Shown piece after piece: positions 17,201-44,875 of a stretch of DNA of 64,000 bases. This stretch comes from Psychroflexus longus (GTDB lineage: Bacteria; Bacteroidota; Bacteroidia; Flavobacteriales; Flavobacteriaceae), in the NCBI RefSeq assembly GCF_020164595.1, contig NZ_JAIQZE010000005.1, positions 124,001 to 188,000 of the forward strand. Reading direction: 5' to 3'. The position numbers and the translations under genes were made by a program. Positions within the stretch are counted from its first letter, which is position 1. Every line of letters begins with the position of its first letter. The notes under the pieces are model-generated. The model had not been told where the DNA came from and did not search any database. It saw only the letters and a list, made by a program, of their open reading frames with translations.

Positions 17201-17210
17201 AGCTTAATTC

Positions 17211-24361: not shown

Positions 24362-24371
24362 CGTTTGTATT
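24354..24371. promoter_or_regulatory. LacI-type operator, perfect 18-bp palindrome
   Basis: AATACAAAC/GTTTGTATT is an exact inverted repeat with a central CG step, as in LacI-family operators. It lies between the divergent LacI and alpha-glucosidase genes and supplies the TTTG -33 element for each. Binding would block both promoters. Confidence 0.8.
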
Positions 24372-24394
24372 GTTATTTTAACAAAAAACATTTG
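24364..24394 (+). promoter_or_regulatory. Promoter of the alpha-glucosidase-susC-susD operon
   Basis: TTTG (24364-24367), the right half of the operator, is followed after 19 bases by AACATTTG (24387-24394), one mismatch from TAnnTTTG. The leader to the chosen start at 24464 would be about 60 bases. Confidence 0.5.
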
Positions 24395-24463
24395 ATTAAA
24401 CTTGTTAAAATAAAAATAAATATAATTAATTTGAAGAACTCAATCGTTTTAGCTGACTCGTTT

Positions 24464-29100: not shown

Positions 29101-29229
29101 AGTGGTATAGATCCCGAAGTTTCTTCAAATACAGGAGATTTAGGTAGTGGTATTCCAAGTTCAGGTATAGATTATACCGCTTTCCCAAGACCAAGAACGA
29201 TTACGATAGGATTAAATGCAACATTTTAA
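26164..29229 (+). CDS. SusC/RagA family TonB-linked outer-membrane transporter
   Basis: A 1021-residue protein. The signal peptide ends at about Ala23 (TIFAQ). An N-terminal carboxypeptidase-regulatory-like domain follows (about 27-97), with ISVSG-type opening ITVSGVVSEQ. The TonB-box-like region and plug come next (DEVVVIGYGTTSVKDATGAV, and NPNDIESISVLKDASATAIY with GSRGANGVV). A 22-strand barrel ends in the aromatic terminus LNATF. It takes up a glycan-derived oligosaccharide in complex with the SusD-like lipoprotein encoded 12 bases downstream. Its length and domains are typical, with nothing missing. Confidence 0.95.
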   Translation: MKKMLVKYVLFGIVMLFSSTIFAQITVSGVVSEQMGPIPGVNIVEKGTNNGTVTGFDGDYTITVSEGATLVFRYVGFQSREVAVNGQSTINVTLIEDTARLDEVVVIGYGTTSVKDATGAVSSVSSKDFNGGVISSPEQLIQGKTAGVQIALSSGEPGAGANIRIRGANSIRSNSNPLFVVDGIPLSDESTVPSAGGIVDGADSSRNPLSFINPNDIESISVLKDASATAIYGSRGANGVVIVTTKTGKGNEGGTFQFSSDLSISSPQNDFDLFNAQQYKDNFLSVTGGAIPGFDDTGADTNWQDVITRTVVSTNNNLTYSRSYNNGNLRASFSHADQQGILENSSQERIVGRINLTHRFLDDKLRLKVQSSISRLNDEAPLISGQAGASGNLIGAAYSAPPTWPNDPDFFVAGNRLNPANMLANYESNTQTNRVLLNGSLEYDLTDNLVAKVNLGYDKSDAEANSVVLPTYENNGRLTGNGQAAFNNLEASSKLLEATLNYKKDFGDSNIDVIAGYSFQDFRRQGFNSQGWGFGANPNLSQSINNIQSNIDGSFQQFGYSSQGSFVNRLFPLSESDELGTTDDAFESIWLDTFDNTDELQSFFTRVNYSLNDKYLFTATVRADGSSRFGGNNKYGVFPSGAFAWKLSEEDFTGDAFSTLKLRTSVGITGNQDGLGYANYLKRQRFRGPGIEDSGNINRPGLATVAVQNEDLRWESTLDVNVGLDFGFDLDRIRGSVDLYRKETSDLLFRQAAAAPAFDPFVFRNLQDGKVINQGVEFNIGYDFINTVKSNFSVDFNIAYNDNTVEGLRGTVADFGAIRGPGLTNAFAQRLGEGRPLFSYYMAEYSEDENGVPNFSPDDKDFVGKSALPTITSGLSFNYSYGNFDASAFFTGQFGFYVYNNTANAFLNRETFQTSRNVTPDALDRVSQEVSTQYLEKGDFVRLQNLTLGYNVPLSVDKSFLKSLRVSLNGQNLLLLTGYSGIDPEVSSNTGDLGSGIPSSGIDYTAFPRPRTITIGLNATF

Positions 29230-29241
29230 AAATAAAATATT

Positions 29242-30876
29242 ATGAATTTTAAACACAAAATTAGATTATCAGCATACTTAGCTATGATGTGTGCCGTTCT
29301 ATTTTCATGTACAGACCTGGAAATAGAAGAAACAGATTCTATCTTGACGTCAAACTTTGAAGGTTTGTCGAGTGAAGAAGCTGCTAGTTCCTTAAATGAT
29401 GCATACAATAGTTTAATAGGTGCAGTTGGAACCCAAGAAAATTTATATTCATTGACGGAGGTGACTGGAGATGCCTTGCTTATCCCTACTAGGGGATCGG
29501 ACTGGGGAGATAATGGTCTATGGAGACAACTACATCAGCATTCTTGGACAGCAGATCATCAATTTGTTACCAACACATGGAACCAGTGGAATCAACTGCA
29601 AATTACTGCAAGTGAAATTATAGATCCTCGTTCTAGCTCAGACCCACAAGTAAAGGCTGAAGCCCACTTTTTAAGAGCGCTATCTATGTATGTTATTCTA
29701 GACAACTATGGGCAGGTTCCTTTTAGAGACACAGAAGCTTTGCCTACTTTAGATCCTGAAGTATTTACAGGAGCTGAAGCAGTAGATTTGATAGAAAGTG
29801 ACCTAGATATTGCTATTTCAGAAATGGACGATTCTCCTGCTGGAAGTGATAATGATCGCGCTTCTAAAACAGCTGCTAGATACCTGAAAGCCAAGCTTAT
29901 GCTTAATAAACATGTCTTTACTAAATCTCCTGTAGATAATCAGGATATGAATGAAGTTGTAAGTCTAGTAGATCAAATTTCTGCTAGTGGATACAGCTTA
30001 GAAGAAGGATATTTTGATATCTTCAAATCTGATACAGACTCTGAAACTATTTGGTATATACCGACAGAAGTAGGACCTCGTATTTTCAACACTCTTCACT
30101 ATAATTCTACAGAACTTGGCGGCGGTGGATGGAACGGTTTCTCCACTCTTGCAGAATATTATGATCTGTTTGAAGGTGACCCAGAACAAAACCGTTTAGA
30201 TGAAAATGGTGACCCGATAGATGGACAAGAAGAAAGAAGAGGTGGTGTTCCTCCAATGGGTATTCCTATTGCTGAAGCTGATGATCCATTATTAAATGGT
30301 GATGATAACGAAGATGGTTTTGTAGACGGATCTAATGTTGGTAGTGGATTTTTAATTGGCCAGCAATACGCTCCAAATGGTGAACCGCTAGAAGATAGAG
30401 GTGGTGCTCCGCTTTCATTCACTAAAAACTTTTTTAATTCTGCCACAGGACAACCTAGTTTAGTTGATAATAATGAGGTGACTGGGATACGGGTTATCAA
30501 ATACAATCCTAGATTTGGAGGTTTCAAAAACCATCATATTTTCTTCAGATATTCTGATGCCTACCTTATGAAGGCTGAAGCCCTTTTAAGGTCCGGTGAA
30601 TCTGGTCAAGCTTTAAGTATGGTAAATGACCTTAGACTGTTGAGAAAAGCTCAACCTTTACCTGGTCTTACTGAACAAGATTTATTGGATGAAAGAGGAA
30701 GAGAATTGTTTACTGAATTCTGGAGGCGTAATGATTTAATTCGTTTTGGTCAATATACTAGAGACTGGCCCTTTAAAGATCCAAACGCTGTCAATAATCC
30801 AGACCGAGAACTATTTCCAATTCCAGCAACTCAAGTTATTTTAAACCCTAATTTGGTTCAAAATCCAGGATACTAG
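29242..30876 (+). CDS. SusD/RagB family nutrient-binding outer-membrane lipoprotein
   Basis: A 544-residue lipoprotein (lipobox VLFSC, Cys23). The N-terminal SusD-like region has TPR-type helices (AEAHFLRALSMYVILDNYG). The C-terminal RagB/SusD domain includes FFRYSDAYLMKAEALLRSG, RGRELFTEFWRRNDLIRFG and the closing PIPATQVILNPNLVQNPGY, all standard for the family. It forms the lid over SusC and binds the sugar at the cell surface. A terminator follows its stop, separating this operon from the CRTAC1-like genes. Confidence 0.95.
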   Translation: MNFKHKIRLSAYLAMMCAVLFSCTDLEIEETDSILTSNFEGLSSEEAASSLNDAYNSLIGAVGTQENLYSLTEVTGDALLIPTRGSDWGDNGLWRQLHQHSWTADHQFVTNTWNQWNQLQITASEIIDPRSSSDPQVKAEAHFLRALSMYVILDNYGQVPFRDTEALPTLDPEVFTGAEAVDLIESDLDIAISEMDDSPAGSDNDRASKTAARYLKAKLMLNKHVFTKSPVDNQDMNEVVSLVDQISASGYSLEEGYFDIFKSDTDSETIWYIPTEVGPRIFNTLHYNSTELGGGGWNGFSTLAEYYDLFEGDPEQNRLDENGDPIDGQEERRGGVPPMGIPIAEADDPLLNGDDNEDGFVDGSNVGSGFLIGQQYAPNGEPLEDRGGAPLSFTKNFFNSATGQPSLVDNNEVTGIRVIKYNPRFGGFKNHHIFFRYSDAYLMKAEALLRSGESGQALSMVNDLRLLRKAQPLPGLTEQDLLDERGRELFTEFWRRNDLIRFGQYTRDWPFKDPNAVNNPDRELFPIPATQVILNPNLVQNPGY

Positions 30877-31000: not shown

Positions 31001-34000
31001 ATGGTTCAAAGAGCTTTAATTATCTTTCTTATTCACTTAGTGTTGTATTCATGCGCTAAGGATGAAGAACACAAATCTGCATATAAAAATGCTAAGCCTA
31101 CTCTGTTTTCATTGCTAGATGCAGACAGTACAGGGGTAGATTTTACCAACAGGATTACAAACCAGAAAGACTTCAATATTTTTAAGTATAGAAACTTCTA
31201 TAATGGAGGCGGAGTTGCTATTGGAGATATTAATAATGACGGCTTACCAGACATTTATCTTACTGCTAATATGGGGCCAAACAAACTTTACCTCAATAAG
31301 GGCGATATGAAGTTTGAAGATGTTTCTACTTCTGCAGGAGTAGAGGGCGATAAGCCTTGGTCTACTGGGGTGACTATGGTAGATATCAACAATGATGGCT
31401 TGCTGGATATTTATGTGAGTAATGCTGGAAACATGGAAGGAAATAACCATGATAACGACTTGTATATCAATAATGGCGATGGAACCTTTACAGAAAAGGC
31501 AGAAGAATACAACCTTGCAAAAACAGGATTTTCTACCCATGCTACTTTCTTTGATTATGATAATGACGGCGATCTGGATGTATATATCCTTAACAACAGT
31601 AACATTCCTGTAAGCAGTTTAGGTTATGCACACCAAAGAGATGTACGTGCACAAGATTGGGAAAATGTTCCTCATATCTTTAGAGGCGTAGGGGATATGT
31701 TATTAAGAAATGATGATGGAAAATTTGTTGACGTAAGTGAGGAAGCTGGAATCTACGGTAGTTTAATAGGTTTTGGTCTAGGGGTAATGATTACTGATAT
31801 TAATAATGATACTTATCCAGATATTTATGTGTCCAACGATTTTTATGAGCGTGACTATTTATATATCAACAATGGAGATGGTACGTTTACCGAAGATATT
31901 AATAACCAAATGACTCATCTTTCTTTGTCTGCTATGGGAATAGATATTGCAGATATCAATAATGACGGACATCTAGATATGTACGTTACGGACATGCTTC
32001 CAGATGGAGACCAGCGTATTAAATCTGTTATGGAGTTTGAAGGATATAACGTGTTTAAACTCAAGCAAAGCAAAGACTTTCATCAACAGTATATACAAAA
32101 CACCTTACAGCTAAATAATGGTAATAATACATTTTCAGAAATAGCAAATTTCAGCGGCGTTTCCAAAACAGATTGGAGCTGGGCAGGTTTGCTTTTTGAT
32201 ATGGATAATGACGGATACAAAGATATCTACGTTACCAATGGTATTAATCATGACTTGACAGACCTTGATTTTGTAGACTTTTTTGCAAACGATATCATCC
32301 AAAAAATGGCACTTACCGGAAAGAAACAAGCCATAGATTCTATCATTAACAAGATGCCTCAACGACCACAGTCTAATTATGCGTATCACAATAGTAAAGA
32401 CCTAACTTTTGAAGATAGCACCAAAGAATGGGGCTTATATAAACCTAGCTTTTCTAACGGGACAGCTTATGCAGATTTAGATAATGATGGTGATCTTGAC
32501 TTGGTGGTAAACAACGTAAATATGCCTTCATTTATTTACAGAAATAATTCAGAAACTCAAACTAATAACAACCACATCAGAATTAAGCTTGAAGGAGGAC
32601 CAAAAAATAAATTTGCTATTGGAGCAAAAGTGAAACTTTTTATAGATGGCATGGTGCTGACTCAAGACCAAATGCCATCTCGAGGATTCCAATCTTCTAT
32701 GGATTATGTTATGGCTATAGGCGTTGGAGAAGTAGATGTCATCGATTCTTTACAAGTGATTTGGCCTAATAACAAAACACAACTTTTTACAGATATAGAA
32801 ACCAATCAACTTCTAGACCTAAAGCAAGCTGAAGCTGGTGATATATACCAACCCGAAAAACAATTCAATACCAATACCTTACTAAAGGAAGTACCAAATA
32901 ATTTTGTAGCTCACCAAGAAAACACTTACTCAGATTTTGATTTTGAAGGTCTTATCCAAAAAAAATTATCTCAAGAAGGTCCGGCCATTGCTGTTGGAGA
33001 TGTTAATAATAATGGACAAGACGATATTTTTATTGGTGGTGGAAAAAATCAAGAAGGTCAACTTTACATCAACATAGGTAATGGCAATTGGGAGGTATAC
33101 AACACAGGTCAGTTTGAAAATACAGCTCATCTAGAAGATACAGCAGCAGCATTTTTTGATGCCAACGGAGATGGTAACCTGGACTTAATTGTAGGCAATA
33201 GTGGTAACGAAGTCAACCGTAAAGAAAAGTATGCTGTAAGGCTATATCTCAACGATGGAAAAGGCAATTTTTCTTTATCAGAAAAGAAAATTCCTTACAC
33301 CAACAATAATATCTCTGTAATAGCTCCTTACGATTTTGATGAAGATGGAGATGTAGATGTGTTCATTGGCTCAAGAAGTGTAGTGGGTACTTACGGTATA
33401 AACCCTGAACATTTATTTTTAGAAAATACAGGAGATGGAGACTTTAAAGATGCAACCGAACGCTACGCCTACGACCTCAAAGACGCAGGAATGATAACCC
33501 ATGCCGTTTGGGAAGATATAGATGGCGATTCTAAGAAAGACTTGATAACCGTTTCCGATTGGGGAACGCCAAATATATATCGAAACTCTGGTAGAGACCT
33601 TACCAAATTAGAATCCAATCTAGATAACTATCATGGTTGGTGGGAGACTGTAACTGTTGCAGATATCAACAACAATGGAAAAATGGATTTGATTTTAGGA
33701 AATCAAGGCAAGAATACGTTGTACAAAGCAAATCAAGAAGAGCCTATGAAAATGTGGGTAAACGATTTTGATAATAACGGCACAATAGAGCAAATCTTTA
33801 CAAGACATATCAATGGAAAAGACTTCCCATTACACATGAAAAAAGAGTTAACGGGTCAAATTGTATCCTTAAAAAAGAAAAATATTAAAGCTTCTGAATA
33901 TGCTAAAAAAACTATTCAAGAGCTATTTAGTGAAGATATTATAGAGACCACCTTACTCAAACAAGCCAACACCTCAGAAACTTTAATTGCTTTAAATAAT

Positions 34001-34345
34001 GGTGATGGAGACTTTACCATTAAAAAATTACCAAACAGAGTTCAATTTTCTTCTATGAATAGCATCCTGTGTTTAGATTTGAATGGAGATGGCTATAAAG
34101 ACCTCGTAATGGGTGGAAATAATCATGAATTCAAGCCACAATTTTCTAGACTAGATGCCAGTTATGGAGAAGTTCTTTTGAATGATGAAAACACTAATTT
34201 TGAGTGGCAAGAGCATTCAACATCAGGGTTTTTTGTAAGAAACGAAGTGAAACATATTAAGCTCGCCAATAGCAAAGACGGCAAGACGTATATAATTGTT
34301 GTAAGAAATGACGATACTCCCAAAATTTTTGAAGTTAAAAACTAA
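31001..34345 (+). CDS. CRTAC1-like lipoprotein with FG-GAP/VCBS repeats and ASPIC/UnbV domain (copy A)
   Basis: A 1114-residue lipoprotein (lipobox VLYSC, Cys18). Repeated Asp-rich loops such as GDINNDGLPDIYL, FDYDNDGDLDVY and DLDNDGDLDLVVN mark two sets of FG-GAP/VCBS beta-propeller blades, each loop a probable calcium site. An ASPIC/UnbV module lies between them (about residues 540-600: SRGFQSSMDYVMAIGVGE, SLQVIWPNNKTQ). The protein is likely on the cell surface. Human CRTAC1 shares this architecture, but bacterial roles are unknown. It is the first gene of a probable five-gene operon ending with the trehalase. It is more distant from the two other copies than they are from each other. Confidence 0.9.
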   Translation: MVQRALIIFLIHLVLYSCAKDEEHKSAYKNAKPTLFSLLDADSTGVDFTNRITNQKDFNIFKYRNFYNGGGVAIGDINNDGLPDIYLTANMGPNKLYLNKGDMKFEDVSTSAGVEGDKPWSTGVTMVDINNDGLLDIYVSNAGNMEGNNHDNDLYINNGDGTFTEKAEEYNLAKTGFSTHATFFDYDNDGDLDVYILNNSNIPVSSLGYAHQRDVRAQDWENVPHIFRGVGDMLLRNDDGKFVDVSEEAGIYGSLIGFGLGVMITDINNDTYPDIYVSNDFYERDYLYINNGDGTFTEDINNQMTHLSLSAMGIDIADINNDGHLDMYVTDMLPDGDQRIKSVMEFEGYNVFKLKQSKDFHQQYIQNTLQLNNGNNTFSEIANFSGVSKTDWSWAGLLFDMDNDGYKDIYVTNGINHDLTDLDFVDFFANDIIQKMALTGKKQAIDSIINKMPQRPQSNYAYHNSKDLTFEDSTKEWGLYKPSFSNGTAYADLDNDGDLDLVVNNVNMPSFIYRNNSETQTNNNHIRIKLEGGPKNKFAIGAKVKLFIDGMVLTQDQMPSRGFQSSMDYVMAIGVGEVDVIDSLQVIWPNNKTQLFTDIETNQLLDLKQAEAGDIYQPEKQFNTNTLLKEVPNNFVAHQENTYSDFDFEGLIQKKLSQEGPAIAVGDVNNNGQDDIFIGGGKNQEGQLYINIGNGNWEVYNTGQFENTAHLEDTAAAFFDANGDGNLDLIVGNSGNEVNRKEKYAVRLYLNDGKGNFSLSEKKIPYTNNNISVIAPYDFDEDGDVDVFIGSRSVVGTYGINPEHLFLENTGDGDFKDATERYAYDLKDAGMITHAVWEDIDGDSKKDLITVSDWGTPNIYRNSGRDLTKLESNLDNYHGWWETVTVADINNNGKMDLILGNQGKNTLYKANQEEPMKMWVNDFDNNGTIEQIFTRHINGKDFPLHMKKELTGQIVSLKKKNIKASEYAKKTIQELFSEDIIETTLLKQANTSETLIALNNGDGDFTIKKLPNRVQFSSMNSILCLDLNGDGYKDLVMGGNNHEFKPQFSRLDASYGEVLLNDENTNFEWQEHSTSGFFVRNEVKHIKLANSKDGKTYIIVVRNDDTPKIFEVKN

Positions 34346-37300
34346 TATACTATTCATACTAGTCGGTTTGTTCATTTTCTCTGCTTGCAAAGAAGAAGAT
34401 GAAGCAGTATTTAAGCTTATTACATCTGAGCAGACAGGCGTTTCTTTTTCAAATCAAATTACAGAAACTGAAGACGCTAATATTCTAGACTATATGTATT
34501 TCTACAATGGTGGTGGGGTTGCAGTTGGAGATATCAATAATGATGGTTTGCCAGATATATTCCTTTCAGGAAATCAAGTAAAAAATAAGCTTTACCTCAA
34601 CAAAGGCAATCTTGAGTTTGAGGATATAACTGAACAAGCAAAAGTAGAAGGAAATAGCACCTGGAATACAGGTGCTGTTATGGCAGACGTGAATGGTGAC
34701 GGACTCCTAGATATCTATGTGTGTGCGGTTGTGGGTATAAATGGTTTTAGAGGTCATAACGAATTGTATATCAACAATGGCGATGGCAGCTTTACAGAGT
34801 CTGCAAAAGAGTATGGTCTGGACTTAGACACGTTTAGCTCCTCTGCGGTTTTTTTTGACTACGACCTCGACGGAGACCTCGATATGTATTTGCTCAATCA
34901 TGCTTTGCACACATCAGAGTCTTTTGGAAATGTGAATGTGCGTAACGAACGAAATTACCAAACCGGTGATAAACTATTTAGAAACGATAATGGAAAATTT
35001 GTAGATGTTAGCGAAGAAGCTGGCATATTTGGAGGCGTGAATGGCTATGGCCTTGGAATATCGGTATCCGACTTCAACAATGATGGCTACCCAGATATTT
35101 ATGTGGGGAATGATTTTCATGAAGACGATTATTATTATGTGAACAATTGTGATGGCACATTTACTAATCGACTAACCGAACATTTTGGGCATACTTCTCG
35201 ATTTACCATGGGTATAGACGCTGCAGATATAAACCAAGATGGCCTTGTGGATCTTTTGACTTTGGATATGTTGCCAGAAGATGAAAATGTCCTTAAATCA
35301 TCTGTAGATCATGAAGATTATCAAATAGAAAAAATAAGAGTCGATAATTACGGTTACTACTATCAGTATGCTAGAAATATGCTTCAGATTAATCAAGAAG
35401 ATGGAAACTTCAAAGAGGTAGGACTTTTAAGTGGTGTAGCTGCTACAGACTGGAGCTGGAGTGCCTTAATTGCAGATTACAATCAAGATGGAAAGCAGGA
35501 TATTTACATTACTAACGGGATTTTGAGACGTCCCAATGATTTAGATTACATCAACTTTGTGTCTAGTGATCAAATTCAAAAGAAAATTAATAAAACCAAC
35601 TTGGTAGACCAAAAGGCATTGTCCAAAATGCCCAATGGCTTGGTGCCCAACGCCATTTTTGAAGGACAGGGTAATTTAATGTTCAAAAACACGTCTAAAA
35701 CTTGGGTTAAAGATGTAAAACCAACCGCCTCTACAGCAATGGCAATGGTAGATTTAGATAACGATGGCGATTTGGATTTGGTAATCAACAACATCAATGA
35801 CGAGGTGAGCATCCTTGAAAACCAAACCAACGCTAAAGCCAATTACCTTAAAATAGAGTTGAGCTCCAAAACAGCCAATTCTCATGCGCTTGGGGCTAAA
35901 GTGTATGCTTACCATAACAATGCGTTTCAGTATAAAGAACACTATACCGCTAGAGGTTTTCAATCATCATCGGAGCCTATCATTCATTTTGGATTTGGTC
36001 AAGTAGAGGCAGTAGATTCCCTCAAGATTGTATGGCCTAACAATACCCAGCAAAGTCTTCAAAATGTAAAAACCAACCAAACTCTGTCTATTGAACCAAA
36101 CCTGGAAAAACCTGTAAAGATTTCAGCTAAAAAAGTTGAAAAACTATTTAGAAAAGTAGAGGGCAATCTTGGTATCAATTTCACCCATGAAGAGGACAAT
36201 TATGTAGATTTTCTTAGACAAAAACTCATTCCTTACAGGGTATCCAATAAAGGTCCTGCTGTAGCAGTGGGAGACTTAGACAATGATGGGAAGGAGGATG
36301 TCTTCTTTGGAGGGGCAAAGTTTAAGCCTTCTCAAGTTTATCTTCAAAAAGATAGCATTTTCCAACTTCAAGATTTCCCTGGTATTTCAAAAGATTCAAT
36401 CAAAGAAGAAGTGACTGCAATTATTCGAGATTTCAATACCAATGGAAAAAATGACTTGTTTGTGGGTGTTGCTGGAGGAGATTTTTACGGCAAGTCTAAA
36501 GCTTTACAAGATAGCTATTACTCTCAAATAGTTGATGGTTTTGAAGCTAAAGATATGCCAGAGTATTTTCAAAATGCTTCAGTCGTAACACCATTTGATT
36601 ATGATAATGATGGCGATCTAGATATTTTTGTAGGTAATTATACCATTACAAATGATTTTGGAAAAGCACCTCACTCTCACCTTCTCGTTAATGATGGCGG
36701 GGAGTTTTCAATTTTGGAACCAAACCCATTTGAAGACTTAGGAATGATAACCGATGCAGTTTGGCAAGATTTTGACAACGATGGTAAGTCAGATTTAATC
36801 GTGGTAGGCGAATGGATGTCGCCAAAATTCTTTAAAAACACGGGTGAAAATTTTAAAGAGGTAGATATTGCTAATAATTTAAAAGGGCTTTGGCAGTCTA
36901 TACAGCCTTTTGATATTGATAATGATGGTGATATGGATTATTTATTAGGAAATTGGGGAACAAATACCAAATTTAAAGCCTCCCAAAAGTATCCTTTAAA
37001 AATGTACTACTCAGATTTTGATAAAAATGGAAGTACAGAAACTATAGTTTGTATTGAAAAAGGCGGAGACTATTATCCATTACTTGGTCTGGACCAGCTG
37101 TCTAGTCAGTTGTTGTTTTTAAAGAAAAAGTTTCCAACCTACGATTCTTTTGCTGGCGAGCCCATCACAAGTATTTTGGAAAGAGATATGTTGAGGTCTG
37201 CTGAAGTTATGGAAGTGAACGAATTGAAATCAGGTTACCTGAAAAACAACAATGGTAAATTTGAATTTGTTCCCTTTGGCAATGAAATGCAAGTAGCACC

Positions 37301-37574
37301 AATAACAAAATTTCTAAAGCATAGTTTTAACAACACCTCCAAAGAACAAGTGTTGGCAGGTGGGAACTTTTTTGGACTTTCTCCATTACATGGTAGGTTA
37401 GATGCGTTTTCTGGAGCCATGATAACCGATGAAAACACCATTAGCTTAGGTCCGGACTTAGGAATTGATTTTAGCAAAAAAGACATTAGAGGTTTGGATA
37501 TAATTCATTTCAATGCTGAAACTTATTTATTGGTAACGATAAATAACGATGAAGTAGAAGTTTATAAATTTTAA
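34308..37574 (+). CDS. CRTAC1-like lipoprotein with FG-GAP/VCBS repeats and ASPIC/UnbV domain (copy B)
   Basis: A 1088-residue lipoprotein (lipobox FIFSAC, Cys27) with the same two sets of propeller repeats and central ASPIC/UnbV module (ARGFQSSSEPIIHFGFG, SLKIVWPNNTQQ). The ATG at 34308 lies 38 bases inside the preceding gene. A TTG at 34329 would shorten the overlap, but the coding frame clearly starts before the upstream stop, suggesting coupled translation. It is the closest relative of the copy at 8835-12068; both carry IFGGVNGYGL, FHEDDYYY and TNGILRRPN-type stretches, and both are followed at once by a haloperoxidase gene (5 bases here). Confidence 0.9.
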   Translation: MTILPKFLKLKTNILFILVGLFIFSACKEEDEAVFKLITSEQTGVSFSNQITETEDANILDYMYFYNGGGVAVGDINNDGLPDIFLSGNQVKNKLYLNKGNLEFEDITEQAKVEGNSTWNTGAVMADVNGDGLLDIYVCAVVGINGFRGHNELYINNGDGSFTESAKEYGLDLDTFSSSAVFFDYDLDGDLDMYLLNHALHTSESFGNVNVRNERNYQTGDKLFRNDNGKFVDVSEEAGIFGGVNGYGLGISVSDFNNDGYPDIYVGNDFHEDDYYYVNNCDGTFTNRLTEHFGHTSRFTMGIDAADINQDGLVDLLTLDMLPEDENVLKSSVDHEDYQIEKIRVDNYGYYYQYARNMLQINQEDGNFKEVGLLSGVAATDWSWSALIADYNQDGKQDIYITNGILRRPNDLDYINFVSSDQIQKKINKTNLVDQKALSKMPNGLVPNAIFEGQGNLMFKNTSKTWVKDVKPTASTAMAMVDLDNDGDLDLVINNINDEVSILENQTNAKANYLKIELSSKTANSHALGAKVYAYHNNAFQYKEHYTARGFQSSSEPIIHFGFGQVEAVDSLKIVWPNNTQQSLQNVKTNQTLSIEPNLEKPVKISAKKVEKLFRKVEGNLGINFTHEEDNYVDFLRQKLIPYRVSNKGPAVAVGDLDNDGKEDVFFGGAKFKPSQVYLQKDSIFQLQDFPGISKDSIKEEVTAIIRDFNTNGKNDLFVGVAGGDFYGKSKALQDSYYSQIVDGFEAKDMPEYFQNASVVTPFDYDNDGDLDIFVGNYTITNDFGKAPHSHLLVNDGGEFSILEPNPFEDLGMITDAVWQDFDNDGKSDLIVVGEWMSPKFFKNTGENFKEVDIANNLKGLWQSIQPFDIDNDGDMDYLLGNWGTNTKFKASQKYPLKMYYSDFDKNGSTETIVCIEKGGDYYPLLGLDQLSSQLLFLKKKFPTYDSFAGEPITSILERDMLRSAEVMEVNELKSGYLKNNNGKFEFVPFGNEMQVAPITKFLKHSFNNTSKEQVLAGGNFFGLSPLHGRLDAFSGAMITDENTISLGPDLGIDFSKKDIRGLDIIHFNAETYLLVTINNDEVEVYKF

Positions 37575-37579
37575 AAGAG

Positions 37580-38923
37580 ATGATGAAAAATTTTAGTCAA
37601 CTATTCAAATTGATTTGCCTTACTGCTATCATTTCAACAGTAGCATGTAAGGAACAGCAACCTATAGAGATTACTGCAGACCATTTTCATCATTCTGTAG
37701 ATAAAGTCGTGGACGCTATGGTGCACGATATTTTTTCTCCTCCAGTAGCAAGTCGCGTATTTGCCTATCCCAATATTGCAGCTTATGAGATAATGGCTCA
37801 AAAGGATAGCGATTTTCTCTCTTTAGATGGCCAACTGAATGGTTTTTCAAAAATCCCTGCACCAAAAGCTCCTGAAGACATTAACTATGAGCTTGCAGCC
37901 TTGATTGCCCATTTAGACTTGAATAGAAAATTGGTTTTTACAGAAGAAATCATTACCAGTTACCGAGATAGCCTTTACACCCTCTGGGAGAAACAAAACG
38001 CAAAAGAATTTGAAAACTCCAAAGCCTATGCCTTGGAGGTGTCTAATCATATTGAAGCATGGATGGATGAAGATAACTACAAACAAACACGTACCATGTC
38101 TAAGTATTCTGTCAATAGTAAAGACCTCTCAAAATGGCAACCTACACCGCCAGCTTATATGGATGGAATAGAACCGCATTGGGACAAAATACGCCCATTT
38201 GTTTTAGATACTCCAAGTCAATTTAAACCTGTTGCTCCCCCAGATTTTTCGATGGAAGAAAACAGCGATTTTTATAAAGAATTAAAAGAGGTTTATGATA
38301 TAAGTAATGAGGTAACAGAAAAAGGAGACGATTCAGAAGAAATCCAAATAGCTCAGTTCTGGGACTGTAACCCCTACGTATCCATAACTCGTGGTCACTT
38401 GATGTTTGCTACCAAAAAAATTACGCCAGGTGCGCATTGGATTGGCATTGCAAAAATAGCAAGTAAAAAAAGCAATTTCGATTTTGCTAAAAGCGTTTAT
38501 GTTTATACAAAAACTTCCATTACTATCTTTGATGCTTTTATAAGCTGCTGGGATGAAAAATACCGTAGTAATTTAGTAAGACCCGAAACTTTAATCAATA
38601 TGTATTTCAATGATAATTGGAAACCCATATTGCAAACTCCGCCTTTTCCGGAATACACCAGCGGCCATTCGGTAGTTTCTAATGCTGCTGCGGAATGCTT
38701 AACCGCAATTTTTGGAGAAGACTTTGCTTATGATGACGATACCGAAATTAAATATGGGCTCCCTGTACGAAGCTATACCTCGTTTAAGGAGGCAGCAGCA
38801 GAAGCTACCATCAGTAGACTATATGGTGGTATTCACTACCGTTCTGCAATTGAAGTAGGTAAAACGCAAGGAGAAAATGTAGGTAAATTTGTTATTGAAA
38901 ATCTAGAAATGACCCATGAATAA
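37580..38923 (+). CDS. Vanadium-dependent haloperoxidase-like lipoprotein (PAP2 superfamily), copy 2
   Basis: A 447-residue lipoprotein (lipobox STVAC, Cys23). Vanadate-site residues: Lys327 and Arg334-Pro335 in KYRSNLVRP; Ser361-Gly-His363 in YTSGHS; Ser412-Arg413 and His419 in SRLYGGIHY. It is a clear paralogue of copy 1 at 7482-8822, with long shared stretches and no internal gaps of note. It sits inside a sugar utilisation operon between a CRTAC1-like gene and a GyrI-like gene. That is a puzzling place for a halide-oxidising enzyme, so a phosphatase-like or peroxidase role on another substrate is possible. Confidence 0.86.
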   Translation: MMKNFSQLFKLICLTAIISTVACKEQQPIEITADHFHHSVDKVVDAMVHDIFSPPVASRVFAYPNIAAYEIMAQKDSDFLSLDGQLNGFSKIPAPKAPEDINYELAALIAHLDLNRKLVFTEEIITSYRDSLYTLWEKQNAKEFENSKAYALEVSNHIEAWMDEDNYKQTRTMSKYSVNSKDLSKWQPTPPAYMDGIEPHWDKIRPFVLDTPSQFKPVAPPDFSMEENSDFYKELKEVYDISNEVTEKGDDSEEIQIAQFWDCNPYVSITRGHLMFATKKITPGAHWIGIAKIASKKSNFDFAKSVYVYTKTSITIFDAFISCWDEKYRSNLVRPETLINMYFNDNWKPILQTPPFPEYTSGHSVVSNAAAECLTAIFGEDFAYDDDTEIKYGLPVRSYTSFKEAAAEATISRLYGGIHYRSAIEVGKTQGENVGKFVIENLEMTHE

Positions 38924-39821
38924 GAAAATTAGATATACGCTTGCGGGGGTCTTCATAATACTTTTAGCTAGCCTTGCTTGGGTAGCTTTTAAACCCTATC
39001 ATTATGCTATTCAATTTCAATCTAAAACACTCCCTGGCGTCATCAACCAAACTATAAAAGTATGGTCCATCAATTTAAAAGGTTCTGATGTAGAAGAAAG
39101 TCCTTCGGTCAACTTAATTAAGCAACGTATAAAAACAAAAAACACCACTTATTTTTATAATTGGGAATTAACTCAAAAAAGTGATTCTTTAACCAAAGTG
39201 AGAGTAGAGGTTATCGATAGTACGCAAAATAATCTGTTAGCTAGATTATCAAATGTTTTTCAAAAGGAAAAAATAAAGAAAACTTCCGTAGAAAATGTCA
39301 AAGCTTTACTTGAAATATTAAATGAACATTTAGAAGACCATGAGGTGGTTATTGATGAACAGACTGCCTCCCCGTCGGTGTTTTGTGCTTACGTACCATT
39401 AAAAGGTATACAACCTCAAAAAGCCAAGGGCATGATGCTACATTATAACCTCATATCAGATTTTATTTTAAAGCATGGTATTGAAACAAATGGAAATCCC
39501 ATGGTAGAAGTATATAATTGGGAAATGGAAAAGGACAGCATTCATTATAACTTTTGCTTTCCTATTATTATGAAAGATTCACTACCCGAAGATCCTCTCA
39601 TAAAATACAAACAAATCGATAGCAAAAACGCATTAAAAGCTACCTATTATGGTAACTATATGTCCTCAGACCGTGCATGGTATGCCTTACAGAGTTATGC
39701 TGAAAATAATTCAATAGACTTGGAAAATACCCCCATAGAAGTATTTCACAACAACCCTATGCAAGGCGGCGATGATACAAAGTGGAAAACTGAGGTTTAC
39801 TTACCTATAAAAGATAAATAA
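38916..39821 (+). CDS. Membrane-anchored two-domain protein with C-terminal GyrI/effector-binding-like domain
   Basis: A 301-residue protein whose ATG overlaps the haloperoxidase stop by 8 bases. One N-terminal hydrophobic segment (residues 7-26) anchors it, leaving the rest outside the cytoplasm. Residues ~30-140 resemble a helix-grip (SRPBCC-type) fold, with YAIQFQSKTLPGVINQTIKV. Residues ~145-300 look like a GyrI/SOUL small-molecule-binding domain, with LKATYYGNYMSSDRAWYALQ and VEVYNWEME. The pair is known as an uncharacterised layout in Bacteroidota. It has no DNA-binding domain, so it is not a regulator by itself. Its presence between haloperoxidase and trehalase suggests ligand binding in the same pathway. 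Confidence 0.65.
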   Translation: MNKKIRYTLAGVFIILLASLAWVAFKPYHYAIQFQSKTLPGVINQTIKVWSINLKGSDVEESPSVNLIKQRIKTKNTTYFYNWELTQKSDSLTKVRVEVIDSTQNNLLARLSNVFQKEKIKKTSVENVKALLEILNEHLEDHEVVIDEQTASPSVFCAYVPLKGIQPQKAKGMMLHYNLISDFILKHGIETNGNPMVEVYNWEMEKDSIHYNFCFPIIMKDSLPEDPLIKYKQIDSKNALKATYYGNYMSSDRAWYALQSYAENNSIDLENTPIEVFHNNPMQGGDDTKWKTEVYLPIKDK

Positions 39822-39823
39822 TA

Positions 39824-41758
39824 ATGAAAAACAACCACATTATTTACCTAGTTCTAATTGTAGTATTTGCAATTGGATGTCAAAATAATAAAGAAACAGC
39901 AGATTTTTATGCGGTAGATGTAAATCAAACTTTACAGAGACTAGAAGCAGAACAAGACACGGATAAGGACAAAAAAATAACTGAAGATGATACGGCCCAA
40001 AAATCTTTTGTGCTGAAAGCAAAAGATGGAAGTGAGGTTACTATTGAAGGTACCTACCATTTATCAAATTTATTGCAAGAATTGGCTGCTGCGAAAAATG
40101 AAGGTAAAACTGATGTGGAAATTTCTTTAAAAAGCATAAAAGAACAACCTGCCGACCGAATTTCTCGACTTATAAAAACCAAGTATTGGGATAACCTTAC
40201 CCGCCGAGTTGATCAATCTGGGCTAGAAACCATCTTAACCGATACCAAAGCTTCAGATGGTTTAATAAGAAGACTGTATGTGCCATCTACAGATTCTGTA
40301 GGTGTAAGCTATTTTAAATCAATTGAAAGTGATTTCAAAAACTTTGAAGTCGTTGTTTTACCTGAAAATATTTCACCTGAATATGTGAAATCCATCAACG
40401 ATAAACCTGGTATTTTAAGTTTACAAATAACAAATGGCGAGGGTACTCCATTTGTAGTGCCTGGCGGAAGGTTCAATGAAATGTACGGATGGGATTCATA
40501 TTTTGAAGGAGTAGGACTCAATGTAGACGGAAGACAAGATTTATCCATCGCTATGATTGAAAATTTCGCTTACCAAATACAGCATTATGGGAAGATATTG
40601 AATGCCAATAGAAGCTACTACCTAACGCGAAGTCAACCTCCATTTATGACTTCATTTATAAGAGAAACATTTGAAAGTGAAGAAGGGCTAAATGAAGAAT
40701 GGCTAACCCAAATGCTTAATGCAGCCTTAGATGAATACTTCAATGTGTGGATGAAGCAAGAAAAAAAACTAACTGCAACGGGCTTGAATAGGTATTTTGC
40801 TGAAGGAATTGGCATTCCGCCAGAAACCGAAGAAGGACATTTTGATACGTATTTAGAAACGGTAGCCTCACAATACCAAATGCCTTTAGATGAATTTATA
40901 GAAGGGTATCAAACGGGCGCTATTGAAGATGAAGCCGTAGATGAATACTTTTTACACGACAGAAGCTTGCGCGAAAGTGGCCACGACACTACCTGGCGAC
41001 TCGATGGCAGGTGTGCAGACTTAAATTCTGTTGCCCTCAATGCCTTGCTTTATAAATATGAAACAGATTTTGCATACCTTATCAAAACCTATTTTGACGA
41101 TTCATTTTTGTTTGAAGACCAAAATCTTGACGAAAACTACTGGATGCAAATCGCTGATGAACGTAAATTGCTCGTCAATCAATTTTTATGGAATGAAGAA
41201 GAAGGCTCGTATTATGATTATAATTTTAAAACGCAAAAACCACTGATTTACGATTCTGCAACCAATTTTTATCCATTGTGGTCCAATTTAGCTTCTCCTG
41301 AACAAGCTGATAAAATGAAAGATAAATTGCTTCAATCCTTGAAAGCAGAAGGTGGTATTTTATCGTCTTCAAAAGCTTCGGTAGAACAATTTGCTTCAAG
41401 CGAGGTATCAAGACAATGGGATTATCCCAATGGTTGGGCACCTCACCAAATGCTGATTTGGAAAGGATTACTCAATTATGGTTATAACACTGAAGCAGAA
41501 GAACTAGCTTACAGATGGATGTGGATGATTACCAAAAATGCTGTAGATTACAATGGAACCATACCAGAGAAGTACGATGTAGTGAACCGAACACACAAAG
41601 TATATGCGGAGTATGGCAACGTAGGAACCGAGTTTGATTACATCACTCCGGAAGGTTTTGGTTGGATGAACGCTTCTTATCAATACGGCTTAACATTGTT
41701 ATCTGATGAACTGCGAGAAAATTTAAACGCCTTAGTTGATCCCGATAAATTATTTTAG
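39824..41758 (+). CDS. Alpha,alpha-trehalase lipoprotein (GH37)
   Basis: A 644-residue enzyme hydrolysing trehalose to two glucose molecules. Trehalase signature 1 is GGRFNEMYGWDSYF (about residue 214) and signature 2 is QWDYPNGWAP (about 531). The catalytic pair is Asp388 in ESGHD and Glu582 in PEKYD. The lipobox FAIGC (Cys19) anchors it in the envelope. Residues 45-56 (DTDKDKKITEDD) form an EF-hand-like calcium loop, followed by an extra N-terminal ~90-residue region before the catalytic domain. It is the last gene of the operon, 2 bases after the GyrI-like gene. This is the best clue to the island's substrate. Confidence 0.94.
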   Translation: MKNNHIIYLVLIVVFAIGCQNNKETADFYAVDVNQTLQRLEAEQDTDKDKKITEDDTAQKSFVLKAKDGSEVTIEGTYHLSNLLQELAAAKNEGKTDVEISLKSIKEQPADRISRLIKTKYWDNLTRRVDQSGLETILTDTKASDGLIRRLYVPSTDSVGVSYFKSIESDFKNFEVVVLPENISPEYVKSINDKPGILSLQITNGEGTPFVVPGGRFNEMYGWDSYFEGVGLNVDGRQDLSIAMIENFAYQIQHYGKILNANRSYYLTRSQPPFMTSFIRETFESEEGLNEEWLTQMLNAALDEYFNVWMKQEKKLTATGLNRYFAEGIGIPPETEEGHFDTYLETVASQYQMPLDEFIEGYQTGAIEDEAVDEYFLHDRSLRESGHDTTWRLDGRCADLNSVALNALLYKYETDFAYLIKTYFDDSFLFEDQNLDENYWMQIADERKLLVNQFLWNEEEGSYYDYNFKTQKPLIYDSATNFYPLWSNLASPEQADKMKDKLLQSLKAEGGILSSSKASVEQFASSEVSRQWDYPNGWAPHQMLIWKGLLNYGYNTEAEELAYRWMWMITKNAVDYNGTIPEKYDVVNRTHKVYAEYGNVGTEFDYITPEGFGWMNASYQYGLTLLSDELRENLNALVDPDKLF

Positions 41759-41792
41759 GAAACCAATTAAAATAAAAATCTTCCTAAAATAA
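41750..41792. terminator. Inverted repeat between convergent trehalase and porin genes
   Basis: TTATTTTAGGAA (41750-41761) is repeated inverted at 41781-41792, with 19 AT-rich bases between. Both genes end inside an arm, each with TTT-TAG. It could stop transcription from both sides, but there is no GC-rich stem. Confidence 0.4.
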
Positions 41793-42575
41793 ATTTACTG
41801 CCACCTCTAGGGCGCCATACTCTTGCAGATTATTCCACATAGCAGTGGCAGAAACAGGAAGTGTATGCCTGTCAAAAAGCTTAACTGTTTTAGAGTAAGT
41901 AGCGCCATAATTATTAAAACCAGGTCTATCTCCATAAAAATGAGTCTCACTTTCGAAAGAAAAGGCAGCTCCAACATAGACTCCGAGATTCCAGTCTCCT
42001 CCACTCGCAACAATATAAGAAGCTTCTACATAATTGGTAAAGGCATTCCTCAAATCTCCTCTGGAGGTGATGTAAGTATCCCTACCTTGAACGATGGTAC
42101 TCCAACCCAGTTGTAGCGGGATAGCATCGACTCTGTAGGTTGCGGAAACATCAATAAAATGCGAGGTTTCTCTCCTGTCGTAATTGAAGATTTCAGCCTC
42201 TGGGAAATCTGTATAGTTGTTGATGTCCCAAATGGCGAAACTCCAGTTTTTATAATCGTATGTTATATAATAGTCAAACTCTGTATAATTGCCGGCAAAA
42301 CCAACGCCACCCCAAAGCCCAGCTTTAAAATTTCCATCGCTGGTCACGTAATATACATTTGCTGCGGTCATTGCTTCGTCGGTGACCCGGTATCCACGCC
42401 ATAGGTGCATATTTTTCATCGTAAGGTTGAATTCAAAAGGGCGGTAAGATTTTTCAGTTTCTAAACTGTCTTTTGGTAATTGATCTGGTATTGGTTGATA
42501 ATCTCCTTGTCCAAACATAAAATTCGAGGCGCATAGGAATAGAATCAGACTCGAAATCCTGATTTTATTAAACAT
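41784..42575 (-). CDS. Outer-membrane beta-barrel porin-like protein of the glycerol locus
   Basis: A 263-residue protein with a signal peptide ending near NFMFGQ. It has alternating strand-like segments (FNLTMKNMHLWRGYRVTDEA, FDYYITYDYKNWSFAIWDIN) and a C-terminal strand ending in Phe, as in outer-membrane barrels of the TorF/putative porin type. It is 11 bases downstream of glpF and so in the glp operon, where it may admit glycerol or glycerol phosphate esters; this role is inferred from position. Its last ~120 bases are duplicated at 16402-16525. Confidence 0.75.
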   Translation of the reverse strand: MFNKIRISSLILFLCASNFMFGQGDYQPIPDQLPKDSLETEKSYRPFEFNLTMKNMHLWRGYRVTDEAMTAANVYYVTSDGNFKAGLWGGVGFAGNYTEFDYYITYDYKNWSFAIWDINNYTDFPEAEIFNYDRRETSHFIDVSATYRVDAIPLQLGWSTIVQGRDTYITSRGDLRNAFTNYVEASYIVASGGDWNLGVYVGAAFSFESETHFYGDRPGFNNYGATYSKTVKLFDRHTLPVSATAMWNNLQEYGALEVAVNLF

Positions 42576-42586
42576 AAAGATAAATT

Positions 42587-43318
42587 TTAGCTAAGTATTA
42601 AATGGAGATAGGTGGCAAGGCTTGCACCTATTAATGGCCCGAGGATTGGAATCCAGCTGTACGACCAATTACTGTGTGTTTTCCCTTTGATGGGTAAAAG
42701 AAAGTGCATAATACGCGGGCCTAAGTCCCGCGCAGGATTAATGGCGTATCCAGTAAGTCCGCCCAAGGACAAGCCAATGCTCCAAACCACAAAGGCAATT
42801 GGGATGGCACCAACGGCACCAAGGCCTACAGGAACACCTTCTTCACCTTGTATTTCTGCCCCTGTGATAAAAAATACCGCCATGATAAGCACAAATGTGC
42901 CTACGATTTCGCTCATAAGATTCCTAAAAGTATTCGGAATGGCAGGGTCTGTGCAAAAAATAGCCCGTTTCCCTTCAGGATTGTCTGTCGCATCGAAGTG
43001 GTCTTTGAACAACACGTAAACCGTTCCAGAACCAATCATGGCACCAATGACCTGAGCAACTATATACATTGGTACGTCCTGCCAGGCAAAACTTCCTTCT
43101 ATAGCTAAAGCTAAAGTGACTGCGGGATTGATATGTGCTCCGCTGTAAGGTGCAGCGACAAACACTCCAATAAATACTCCCATCGCCCAGCCCGTAGTGA
43201 TGACCATCCAGCCAGCACCACTGCTTTTGGTGTCCTTCAAAACGCTGCTTGCCACCACTCCTCCTCCAAGAAGAATGAGCAAGGCAGTCCCTAAAATTTC
43301 TGCTACAAATGGACTCAT
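42587..43318 (-). CDS. glpF: Glycerol uptake facilitator (MIP/aquaglyceroporin)
   Basis: A 243-residue channel with six membrane segments and both half-helix motifs: HINPAVT (Asn64-Pro-Ala) and INPARD (Asn194-Pro-Ala-Arg197, with Asp198 as in glycerol-conducting members). It passes glycerol across the inner membrane. It lies two bases after glpK on the same strand, within a glpD-glpK-glpF-porin order. Confidence 0.94.
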   Translation of the reverse strand: MSPFVAEILGTALLILLGGGVVASSVLKDTKSSGAGWMVITTGWAMGVFIGVFVAAPYSGAHINPAVTLALAIEGSFAWQDVPMYIVAQVIGAMIGSGTVYVLFKDHFDATDNPEGKRAIFCTDPAIPNTFRNLMSEIVGTFVLIMAVFFITGAEIQGEEGVPVGLGAVGAIPIAFVVWSIGLSLGGLTGYAINPARDLGPRIMHFLLPIKGKTHSNWSYSWIPILGPLIGASLATYLHLILS

Positions 43319-43320
43319 AG

Positions 43321-44823
43321 TTATTGGTTTTTGGATTTACTCCAGTACTGTAAAGCATCAATAGCCCGGTACCATCCTTCAATACCTTCTTTTATACTAT
43401 CCTGATCTTCGGTAGGATGAAATTTGACATCTTCTTCCCAAATGTCTTGAATCTCTTCAATATCTTTCCAAAAGCCAACGGCTAAACCTGCCAAATAAGC
43501 TGCGCCAAGTGCAGTCGTCTCAATCGTTTTCGGTCTTACAGTTGTTGTATTTAGAACGTCCGATTGAAACTGCATCAACATATCGTTAACACTAGCGCCA
43601 CCATCCACTCGAAGTTCTTCGATATCGATTTCGGAATCGGTCTGCATAGCTTTCAAAATATCCATAGTTTGGTAGGCAATGGCATCTAAAGATGCTCTTG
43701 CAATATGCGCATCGGTTGTGCCTCGGGTAATTCCAAATATGCTACCTCTTGCGTTTTGATCCCAGTAGGGTGCTCCAAGTCCGGCAAAAGCAGGGATAAA
43801 ATAGACCCCTTCTGAAGATTCTACAGAATTGGCCACATATTCAACATCGCTAGATCGCCTTATCAGTCCAATACCATCTCTTAGCCATTGTACCACGGCT
43901 CCGCCTATAAAGATGCTGCCTTCCAAAGCGTAATTGGTTTTACCATTGATGCGCCAGGCTACAGTTGTTAAAAGTTTATTGTTGGAAATTATGGGCTTTT
44001 CGCCAATGTTCATCAACATAAAGCATCCCGTGCCATACGTGCTTTTTACCATTCCTTTTTTAGTACACATTTGACCAAACAAAGCCGCCATCTGGTCCCC
44101 GCCAATTCCTGCAATAGGCACTTTGGAGGCAAATATGGTGGTTTTGGTATGCCCGTAAACCTCGCTCGAATCTTTTACTTCTGGCAACATGCTTTTCGGT
44201 ATGCCAAATAATTCAAGCAAGTCTTCATCCCATTCTAAAGTATGGATGTTGAAGAGCATGGTTCGTGAAGCATTGGAGACGTCGGTGACATGAAGCTCAC
44301 CTTTAGTGAAATTCCAAATCAGCCAGGAGTCGATGGTTCCTAATACAAGGTCTCCCGCTTCAGCTTTTTCTCTCGCGCCTTCTACATTGTCCAAAATCCA
44401 TTTGACTTTGGTGCCCGAAAAATAAGAATCGATGACAAGTCCTGTTTTCTCCTGAATCATTTTTTCTTTTCCTTCGGCTTTCAATTGATCACAGTAATCT
44501 GAGGTTCTTTTATCCTGCCATACGATAGCATTGTAAACAGGTTGACCAGTATGTCTATCCCAAACTACAACGGTTTCTCTTTGGTTGGTGATACCAATGG
44601 CGGCAATATTTTTACCGTTAAGCCCTTTTTTGGTCGTGGCTTCAGCGGCTACACCTGCTTGCTTAGACCAGATCTCGGCAGGATCGTGTTCTACCCAGCC
44701 TGGTTTTGGATAATGCTGTGCAAATTCTTGCTGAGCAATGGAGTGTATTTCTCCTTTCTGATTGAATAAAATAGCTCTTGAACTTGTTGTGCCTTGATCT
44801 AAGGCCAAAATGTACTTTTCCAT
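43321..44823 (-). CDS. glpK: Glycerol kinase
   Basis: A 500-residue FGGY-family kinase that converts glycerol and ATP to glycerol 3-phosphate. It opens with [14 protein letters not shown] (ATPase phosphate loop) and has [30 protein letters not shown] and the FGGY signature region with [19 protein letters not shown]. Its length matches the family. It is transcribed between glpD and glpF, 52 bases after glpD, and traps glycerol entering through GlpF. Confidence 0.96.
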
Positions 44824-44875
44824 TGGCTTAAAATTTTAAATTATTGATTGAGGTTGGCTGAGAATTTTCTGATAT

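Follow-up and report, generated by a model that had tools for sequence, protein, structure and literature searches.

A conserved gene module of CRTAC1-like propellers and an iodoperoxidase-group vanadium haloperoxidase in a sugar-uptake operon of Psychroflexus longus

Why would a vanadium haloperoxidase (vHPO) be encoded within a sugar operon, directly behind a large CRTAC1-like propeller protein? This question is raised by a stretch of 64,000 nucleotides (nt) from Psychroflexus longus (assembly GCF_020164595.1, contig NZ_JAIQZE010000005.1, positions 124,001–188,000; hereafter the window), in which an initial annotation made from the sequence alone had noticed two propeller–haloperoxidase pairs of the same gene order, and had taken them for an uncharacterised surface system. 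We confirmed the observation and found partial support for its interpretation. Our best reading, which we hold tentatively and at a little under an even chance, is that the genes encode a surface iodide-oxidation unit tied to a SusC–SusD (SusCD) sugar-uptake machine. The two pairs consist of the following genes:

34308–37574, + strand: PropB, a CRTAC1-like propeller lipoprotein of 1088 residues (Pfam; AlphaFold2 model; best fold match murine CRTAC1, 9etn)
37580–38923, + strand: vanadium haloperoxidase of the iodoperoxidase (zgVIPO1) group, 447 residues, with a lipoprotein-like signal (match to 4cit/4usz; pocket conserved)
8835–12068, − strand: Prop2, the CRTAC1-like propeller of the second pair (Pfam; 47% identical to PropB)
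7482–8822, − strand: VIPO2, the second vanadium haloperoxidase, 446 residues (61% identical to the first; pocket intact)

The genes nearly abut, as had been noted, with 5 base pairs (bp) between propeller and enzyme in the first pair and 12 bp in the second, where Prop2 spans 8835–11939 when read from its first ATG. At thresholds of E ≤ 1e-5 for propellers and E ≤ 1e-3 for enzymes, a search of the 2.95-Mb source genome (43 contigs) returned three of the former and two of the latter, all of them in the window, and both enzymes directly follow a propeller. Because the copies are only 61% (enzymes) and 47% (propellers) identical, the two pairs are diverged old paralogues and not the product of a recent duplication. 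The lipoprotein signals ascribed to the pairs are present; that of Prop2, however, is encoded upstream of the first ATG, and only a rare start codon such as the ATT at 12068 puts it in frame; this ATT is the boundary the initial annotation had given. Between 12068 and 11939 on the − strand, no ATG, GTG or TTG start takes in the signal, and the ATT lies two codons past a stop. The lipoboxes of PropA (LYSC; the propeller upstream of PropB, described below), Prop2 (FWSC) and VIPO2 (LTSC) were read by eye, the pattern search having missed or misplaced them.

Conservation of the adjacency in other genomes had been set beforehand as the test of the pairing, and the adjacency proved to be conserved. 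From 149 genomes drawn evenly from the family, 63 of which carry the enzyme at E ≤ 1e-10, we fetched 60 loci with an enzyme of at least 42% identity, and a propeller lies directly upstream on the same strand in 50 of them. A draw across the phylum, in which the enzyme was found at E ≤ 1e-20 in 77 of 395 genomes, gave 49 picked and fetched loci (one a family leftover, one with an enzyme missed by the gene caller); here, almost entirely outside the family, the propeller is directly upstream in 25. Among the best 80 of 589 relatives, a set of named loci that is biased by this choice, 68 have the propeller directly upstream and 60 have a gene for a GyrI-like protein next. Viewed from the propeller side, the enzyme gene is directly downstream of 34 of 35 PropB-type propellers (at least 50% identity, family draw, the window's own included, at most five candidates scored per genome), the sole exception being in a genome without an enzyme match (G047). 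Propellers are rare, with at most 27 candidates per genome among the genomes listed in a first look, and adjacency by chance is therefore ruled out. Propeller–enzyme adjacency is thus conserved far beyond chance within the family; elsewhere, roughly one sampled locus in two has it. The named records of the closest enzymes are mostly labelled Flavobacteriaceae or one of its genera, with a few labelled only Bacteroidetes or Bacteroidia, one Cytophagaceae and one Rokubacteria. The last, titled Candidatus Rokubacteria (L092), carries the full flavobacterial block and is probably mislabelled or a mixed bin. At one locus outside the family (L183:3558-5476), the pair is preceded by an AhpC/TSA-type thioredoxin gene and a weak Cu2_monoox_C match.

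The initial annotation had treated the pair as the unit. The pairing is real; the unit, however, is longer, and a third propeller (PropA) and a GyrI-like gene had been missed. In the window, the following genes surround the first pair:

23263–24306, − strand: LacI-family regulator, divergent from the operon (Pfam LacI, Peripla_BP; NCBIfam matches below cut-offs)
24365–26140, + strand: GH13 of the alpha-glucosidase/oligo-1,6-glucosidase type, TTG start (Pfam Alpha-amylase; best solved relative oligo-1,6-glucosidase 1uok, E 6e-179)
26164–29229, + strand: SusC-like TonB-dependent outer-membrane transporter (Pfam Plug, CarbopepD_reg_2)
29242–30876, + strand: SusD-like lipoprotein (Pfam SusD_RagB, SusD-like_3)
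31001–34345, + strand: PropA, a CRTAC1-like propeller lipoprotein with an ASPIC/UnbV domain (Pfam; 38% identical to PropB; its clade is mainly propellers two genes before the enzyme)
38916–39821, + strand: GyrI-like protein with an N-terminal hydrophobic helix and a predicted small-molecule-binding fold (Pfam GyrI-like; model; Foldseek)
39824–41758, + strand: GH37 trehalase with a lipoprotein-like signal (Pfam Trehalase, E 3e-137)

The operon therefore reads GH13–SusC–SusD–PropA–PropB–enzyme–GyrI-like–GH37 on the + strand, with gaps of 23, 12, 124, −38, 5, −8 and 2 nt, the negative values being the overlaps of PropA with PropB and of the enzyme gene with the GyrI-like gene; such gaps point to a single transcript from GH13 to GH37. 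Both SusC and SusD (26164–30876) thus share an operon with the propellers and the enzyme, as does a gene for trehalose utilisation, the GH37 trehalase. Across the 60 family loci, the number of tandem propellers was zero in 10, one in 6, two in 15 and three in 29, so that 44 have two or three, and the GyrI-like gene directly follows the enzyme in 33.

With respect to the enzyme, the claim of an uncharacterised system did not hold. The best match among all PDB chains is the vanadium-dependent haloperoxidase 4cit/4usz (E 2e-204, residues 8–445 of 447), a crystallised close relative that the title of a 2014 paper reportedly names as the vanadium iodoperoxidase of Zobellia galactanivorans. By homology, the enzyme belongs to a known, structurally characterised family, for which the gene module appears to be a new setting. 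In PMC13198595, 4CIT stands for a vHPO group of its own and is counted as an iodoperoxidase, with the warning that membership of a vHPO group may not reveal the halide type.

The full vanadate pocket reported for both haloperoxidases is indeed in place, with K327, R334, S361-G362-H363, R413 and H419 in each window copy. Among 93 sampled relatives of at least 42% identity, K327, R334, H363, R413 and H419 are invariant (93/93), and the Ser and Gly are each kept in 91. The first copy (37580) matches the PAP2 Pfam model at 34.5 bits, above the curated cut-off of 27.2, and the second (7482) at 19.6, below it. The PAP2 consensus motif is SRX5HX3D, with an Asp four residues past the His; at this position both window copies carry Ala423, and thus neither has the acid-phosphatase motif. 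The same Asp is absent from 92 of the 93 near relatives (Ala in 85) and present in one, and it is kept in 7 of 13 distant relatives (<36% identity). Judging from its family, the enzyme is likely to oxidise iodide with vanadate and peroxide.

The solved enzyme also leads back to the same gene block. The 4cit chain (CHARACTERISED enzyme), which we compared with the fetched loci (Z. galactanivorans itself not being among the named ones), is 98.4% identical to the protein of Z. uliginosa, 86% to that of Z. russellii and 85% to that of Z. barbeyronii, and each of these three enzymes sits in a PropA–PropB–enzyme–GyrI block. Of its 25 best matches, 17 lie behind PropB. Three other named loci, from Arenibacter (L052, L071, L103), hold the block as well.

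All three window propellers strongly match FG-GAP_3, FG-GAP and UnbV_ASPIC (the last at E 1e-18 to 5e-22), bearing out the ASPIC/UnbV module that had been described for PropB and Prop2. They contain 13 (PropB), 12 (PropA) and 11 (Prop2) DxDxDG-like loops, which, to judge by the family, probably bind calcium. PropB was modelled with AlphaFold2 as a propeller fold (mean predicted local distance difference test [pLDDT] score 89.4, predicted template modelling [pTM] score 0.90), and a Foldseek comparison, made for PropB only, matched the model to murine CRTAC1 9etn at E 6e-28, with a template modelling (TM) score of 0.70 on the target and 0.37 on the longer query. CRTAC1 differs in length, its chain having 551 residues and PropB about twice as many, and the window propellers, unlike CRTAC1, are bacterial lipoproteins that occur in tandem beside SusCD and a peroxidase. 

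We then placed 141 propellers, three from the window and 138 from the fetched enzyme loci (propellers from loci without the enzyme were left out), in a FastTree phylogeny. The clade holding PropA has 53 members, 46 of them at position −2 relative to the enzyme, and that holding PropB and Prop2 has 38 members, 36 of them at position −1. The other 38 propellers at position −1 comprise one in the PropA clade and 37 elsewhere in the tree; several propeller types can therefore precede the enzyme. Specific co-evolution of PropB with the enzyme (r = 0.71, versus 0.30 for PropA, 31 loci) was considered and rejected, as the difference was gone after dropping two loci with an outlying PropA. In the remaining 29 loci, the divergence of all pairs of the four module genes is correlated at 0.67–0.79.

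The place of the pair in a trehalose-type sugar operon, which the initial annotation had found unexplained by known haloperoxidase contexts, is supported within the family. A GH37 trehalase (E ≤ 1e-80) occurs in 20 of the 149 family genomes, and 19 of these 20 also carry the enzyme (hypergeometric p = 1.7e-7, relatedness ignored); by their coordinates, the two genes lie within about 20 kb of each other in 12 of the 20. In the fetched stretches, GH37 (at least 40% identity) was found in 10 of 60 family loci and in none of the 49 phylum loci, making the trehalase link a family-level feature. A sister species (L252) has the order SusC–SusD–PropA–PropB–enzyme–GyrI–GH37, followed by Gluconate_2-dh3 and GMC genes on the other strand. 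In a further locus (L142), GH97, a GH100-like gene, two MFS transporters and GH37 lie beyond GyrI. The genes maeB-ruvA-sprA follow the enzyme in 5 of 60 family loci (L161, L166–L169) and follow GH37 in L253–L257 (in L257 at a distance of two genes), which looks like the splitting of a single ancestral cluster. Glycerol genes (MIP, GlpK and GlpD; 41784–46453, − strand) converge on the window trehalase, and GlpD/GlpK also come after GH37 in L062, L088 and L149.

A further sugar-related feature of the window is:

16598–18935, − strand: Gluconate_2-dh3 small subunit (16598–17200) and GMC sugar dehydrogenase (17211–18935) (Pfam)

These genes, found beside GH37 in the sister species, are also near the enzyme loci L089, L095, L121 and L156. 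A 3-keto-glycoside pathway for the GMC, GFO and TIM-barrel genes was suspected and could not be established. The GyrI-like protein was modelled with high confidence (pLDDT 93.4) with an N-terminal helix, and part of the model resembles the binding domains of CTR107, CtaZ, EcmrR and BmrR in Foldseek.

In flavobacteria, the enzyme gene often sits directly behind the propeller genes, and sometimes in sugar-uptake clusters, an arrangement that hints at a role for the enzyme on the cell surface, at the point of sugar entry. A propeller may position the enzyme or its substrate there, as had originally been proposed. On our reading of a surface iodide-oxidation unit, SusC–SusD would carry out sugar uptake at the outer membrane, with GH13 and GH37 acting as alpha-glucoside hydrolases; the lipoproteins would face outwards, and the propellers would attach to SusCD and either hold the enzyme or sit next to it. 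The enzyme would oxidise iodide to HOI/I2 with H2O2 supplied by an alga or produced when the cell itself oxidises sugar, thereby removing peroxide and making a local oxidant during feeding, and the membrane-anchored GyrI-like protein may bind hydrophobic or iodinated by-products.

Several findings weigh against this reading. Eight of the 25 best 4cit matches (76–80% identical) have no adjacent propeller and lie beside a sugar-type symporter, meaning that the same enzyme type exists without a propeller; we lowered our confidence slightly on this account. Ten of the 60 family loci lack a propeller directly upstream, and only one of these has one directly downstream; among the 24 of 49 phylum loci without an upstream propeller, two have one downstream and seven more have one elsewhere in the stretch; and in 11 more divergent loci (one without a called enzyme) the propeller is directly upstream in only two. 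SusC or SusD was seen at only 8 of the 60 family loci, the stretch fetched being in many cases taken up by propellers. No fusion of the enzyme to another gene was seen, the open frames of the listed enzyme matches being at most 554 residues long. The correlated divergence described above is evidence of co-inheritance, not of specific contact. The GMC enzyme is closest to fructose and glucose dehydrogenases, its match to pyranose 2-oxidase being far weaker, and thus no peroxide source is shown. The signal for surface export of lipoproteins was taken as K and then D/E after the Cys. The residues at this site are CKEEDE in PropB and CAKDEE in PropA, and, among sequences whose lipobox was recognised, the pattern fits just 9 of 96 propellers and 11 of 75 enzymes (the lipobox being unrecognised in a further 42 propellers and 45 enzymes, partly perhaps through miscalled start codons). 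With so few sequences fitting, we dropped the signal as proof of surface exposure. Finally, propellers occur without the enzyme: among 20 control propellers chosen for having no adjacent enzyme, 10 lie downstream of a SusC gene of the same orientation, separated from it by SusD or a SusD-sized gene, so propellers must be more than enzyme presenters. Two propellers that are 58–61% identical to Prop2 (L233 in G070, L234 in G068) likewise have no enzyme after them. From their gene neighbourhoods, propellers seem to be partners of SusCD in general, with some of their branches linked to the enzyme.

These controls lend weight to a functional, non-physical link, in which the propellers serve SusCD uptake while co-transcription supplies the enzyme as a peroxide or halogen defence required for feeding on algae, with no complex formed; we rate this as quite possible without thinking it probable. 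Where the upstream propeller is missing, the enzyme gene can directly follow one for an SSF symporter (3 of 10 family loci, 8 of 12 named ones), which would also fit such a link, as would expression in Zobellia, where, according to PMC9296495, vIPO3 is upregulated on Ascophyllum versus alginate and a haloacid dehalogenase on Ascophyllum versus maltose. The tie of PropB-type propellers to the enzyme, at 34 of 35, is however tighter than a general shared regulon needs. Enzymes without an upstream propeller and directly beside an SSF symporter include those of L038, L067, L070, L077, L054, L063, L078 and L093; at a similar locus (L131), the gene after the enzyme is metallophosphoesterase-like. 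A sodium/iodide symporter was considered as the identity of the SSF proteins and dropped, since solved sodium/glucose cotransporters match far better in the two proteins tested (786.6 versus 89.1 bits for L038, and 218.1 versus 78.6 for the window SSF).

The enzyme might instead be a selective halogenase whose substrate is a small hydrophobic molecule and whose binding or protection partner is the GyrI-like protein. We regard this as improbable, even though the fold of the GyrI-like protein is similar to that of drug-binding domains (among them CtaZ, solved with closthioamide), its gene comes next in more than half of the family loci (33 of 60), and the excerpted text of PMC8407465 describes bacterial vanadium enzymes as possibly modifying quorum signals. 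No biosynthetic gene cluster was recognised among the identified neighbours, many neighbours being unclassified, and a lipoprotein encoded in a sugar operon is more in keeping with diffuse oxidation. We give still less credence to a surface phosphatase that would free sugars or glycerol from phosphate esters before uptake: the PAP2 fold and the glycerol genes beside the trehalases in the window and at three other loci are consistent with it, but the closest solved relative was published, by its title, as an iodoperoxidase, and the PAP2 consensus Asp has been lost in nearly all near relatives, though kept in 7 of 13 distant ones. Chance adjacency or recent duplication within the genome, which two copies in one window might suggest, can be dismissed as practically negligible given copies that are just 47–61% identical, adjacency at 50 of 60 loci in an even draw, and a single enzyme match (E ≤ 1e-20) in a same-genus genome (G199), where it is sited in the full operon.

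How, then, does a surface iodide-oxidation unit compare with known systems? The window enzyme resembles zgVIPO1 (4cit/4usz) over nearly its full length, in its pocket residues and in its lipoprotein-like N-terminus, with the difference that the gene context of zgVIPO1 appears in no passage of the literature examined; the 2014 enzyme paper may describe it. The term utilisome is in use for SusCD carrying docked lipoproteins, and, according to PMC7618045, the levan and dextran utilisomes of Bacteroides thetaiotaomicron resemble our operon in that one locus encodes SusC–SusD and further surface lipoproteins. A glycan-binding protein and a glycoside hydrolase serve as their accessories, the hydrolase of the levan system having a propeller domain of its own, and the main text of that paper, as excerpted, contains neither the word peroxidase nor CRTAC. 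In Arenibacter C-21, iodine uptake needs glucose, O2 and Ca2+, and a peroxide-generating or iodide-oxidising system can replace the glucose (PMC5064120). The proposed glucose oxidase/haloperoxidase route of this flavobacterium is thus sugar-, Ca2+- and peroxide-dependent, and its genome holds at least five 4USZ homologues (PMC5064120); the genome announcement assigns no gene to iodine uptake, and our comparison was made through the three Arenibacter loci mentioned above. Judged by titles and the beginnings of abstracts, we found no description, among the open-licence papers listed, of a module joining a haloperoxidase or iodoperoxidase to a CRTAC1-like propeller or SusD.

A bolder form of our reading, which we consider unlikely but not far-fetched, is that CRTAC1-like propellers are dedicated scaffolds that seat the iodoperoxidase on the SusCD complex, bringing sugar capture and peroxide-driven iodine chemistry into one machine at the cell surface. 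If true, it would explain why iodine accumulation in C-21 needs sugar, O2 and Ca2+, and we speculate that the Ca2+ requirement may act through the propellers.

To our knowledge, no physiological role has been settled on for bacterial iodoperoxidases, and none is established for CRTAC1-like propellers in bacteria. The conserved module described here joins the two to sugar uptake in marine flavobacteria; it names partners to examine and opens a genetic route into the sugar-dependent accumulation of iodine.

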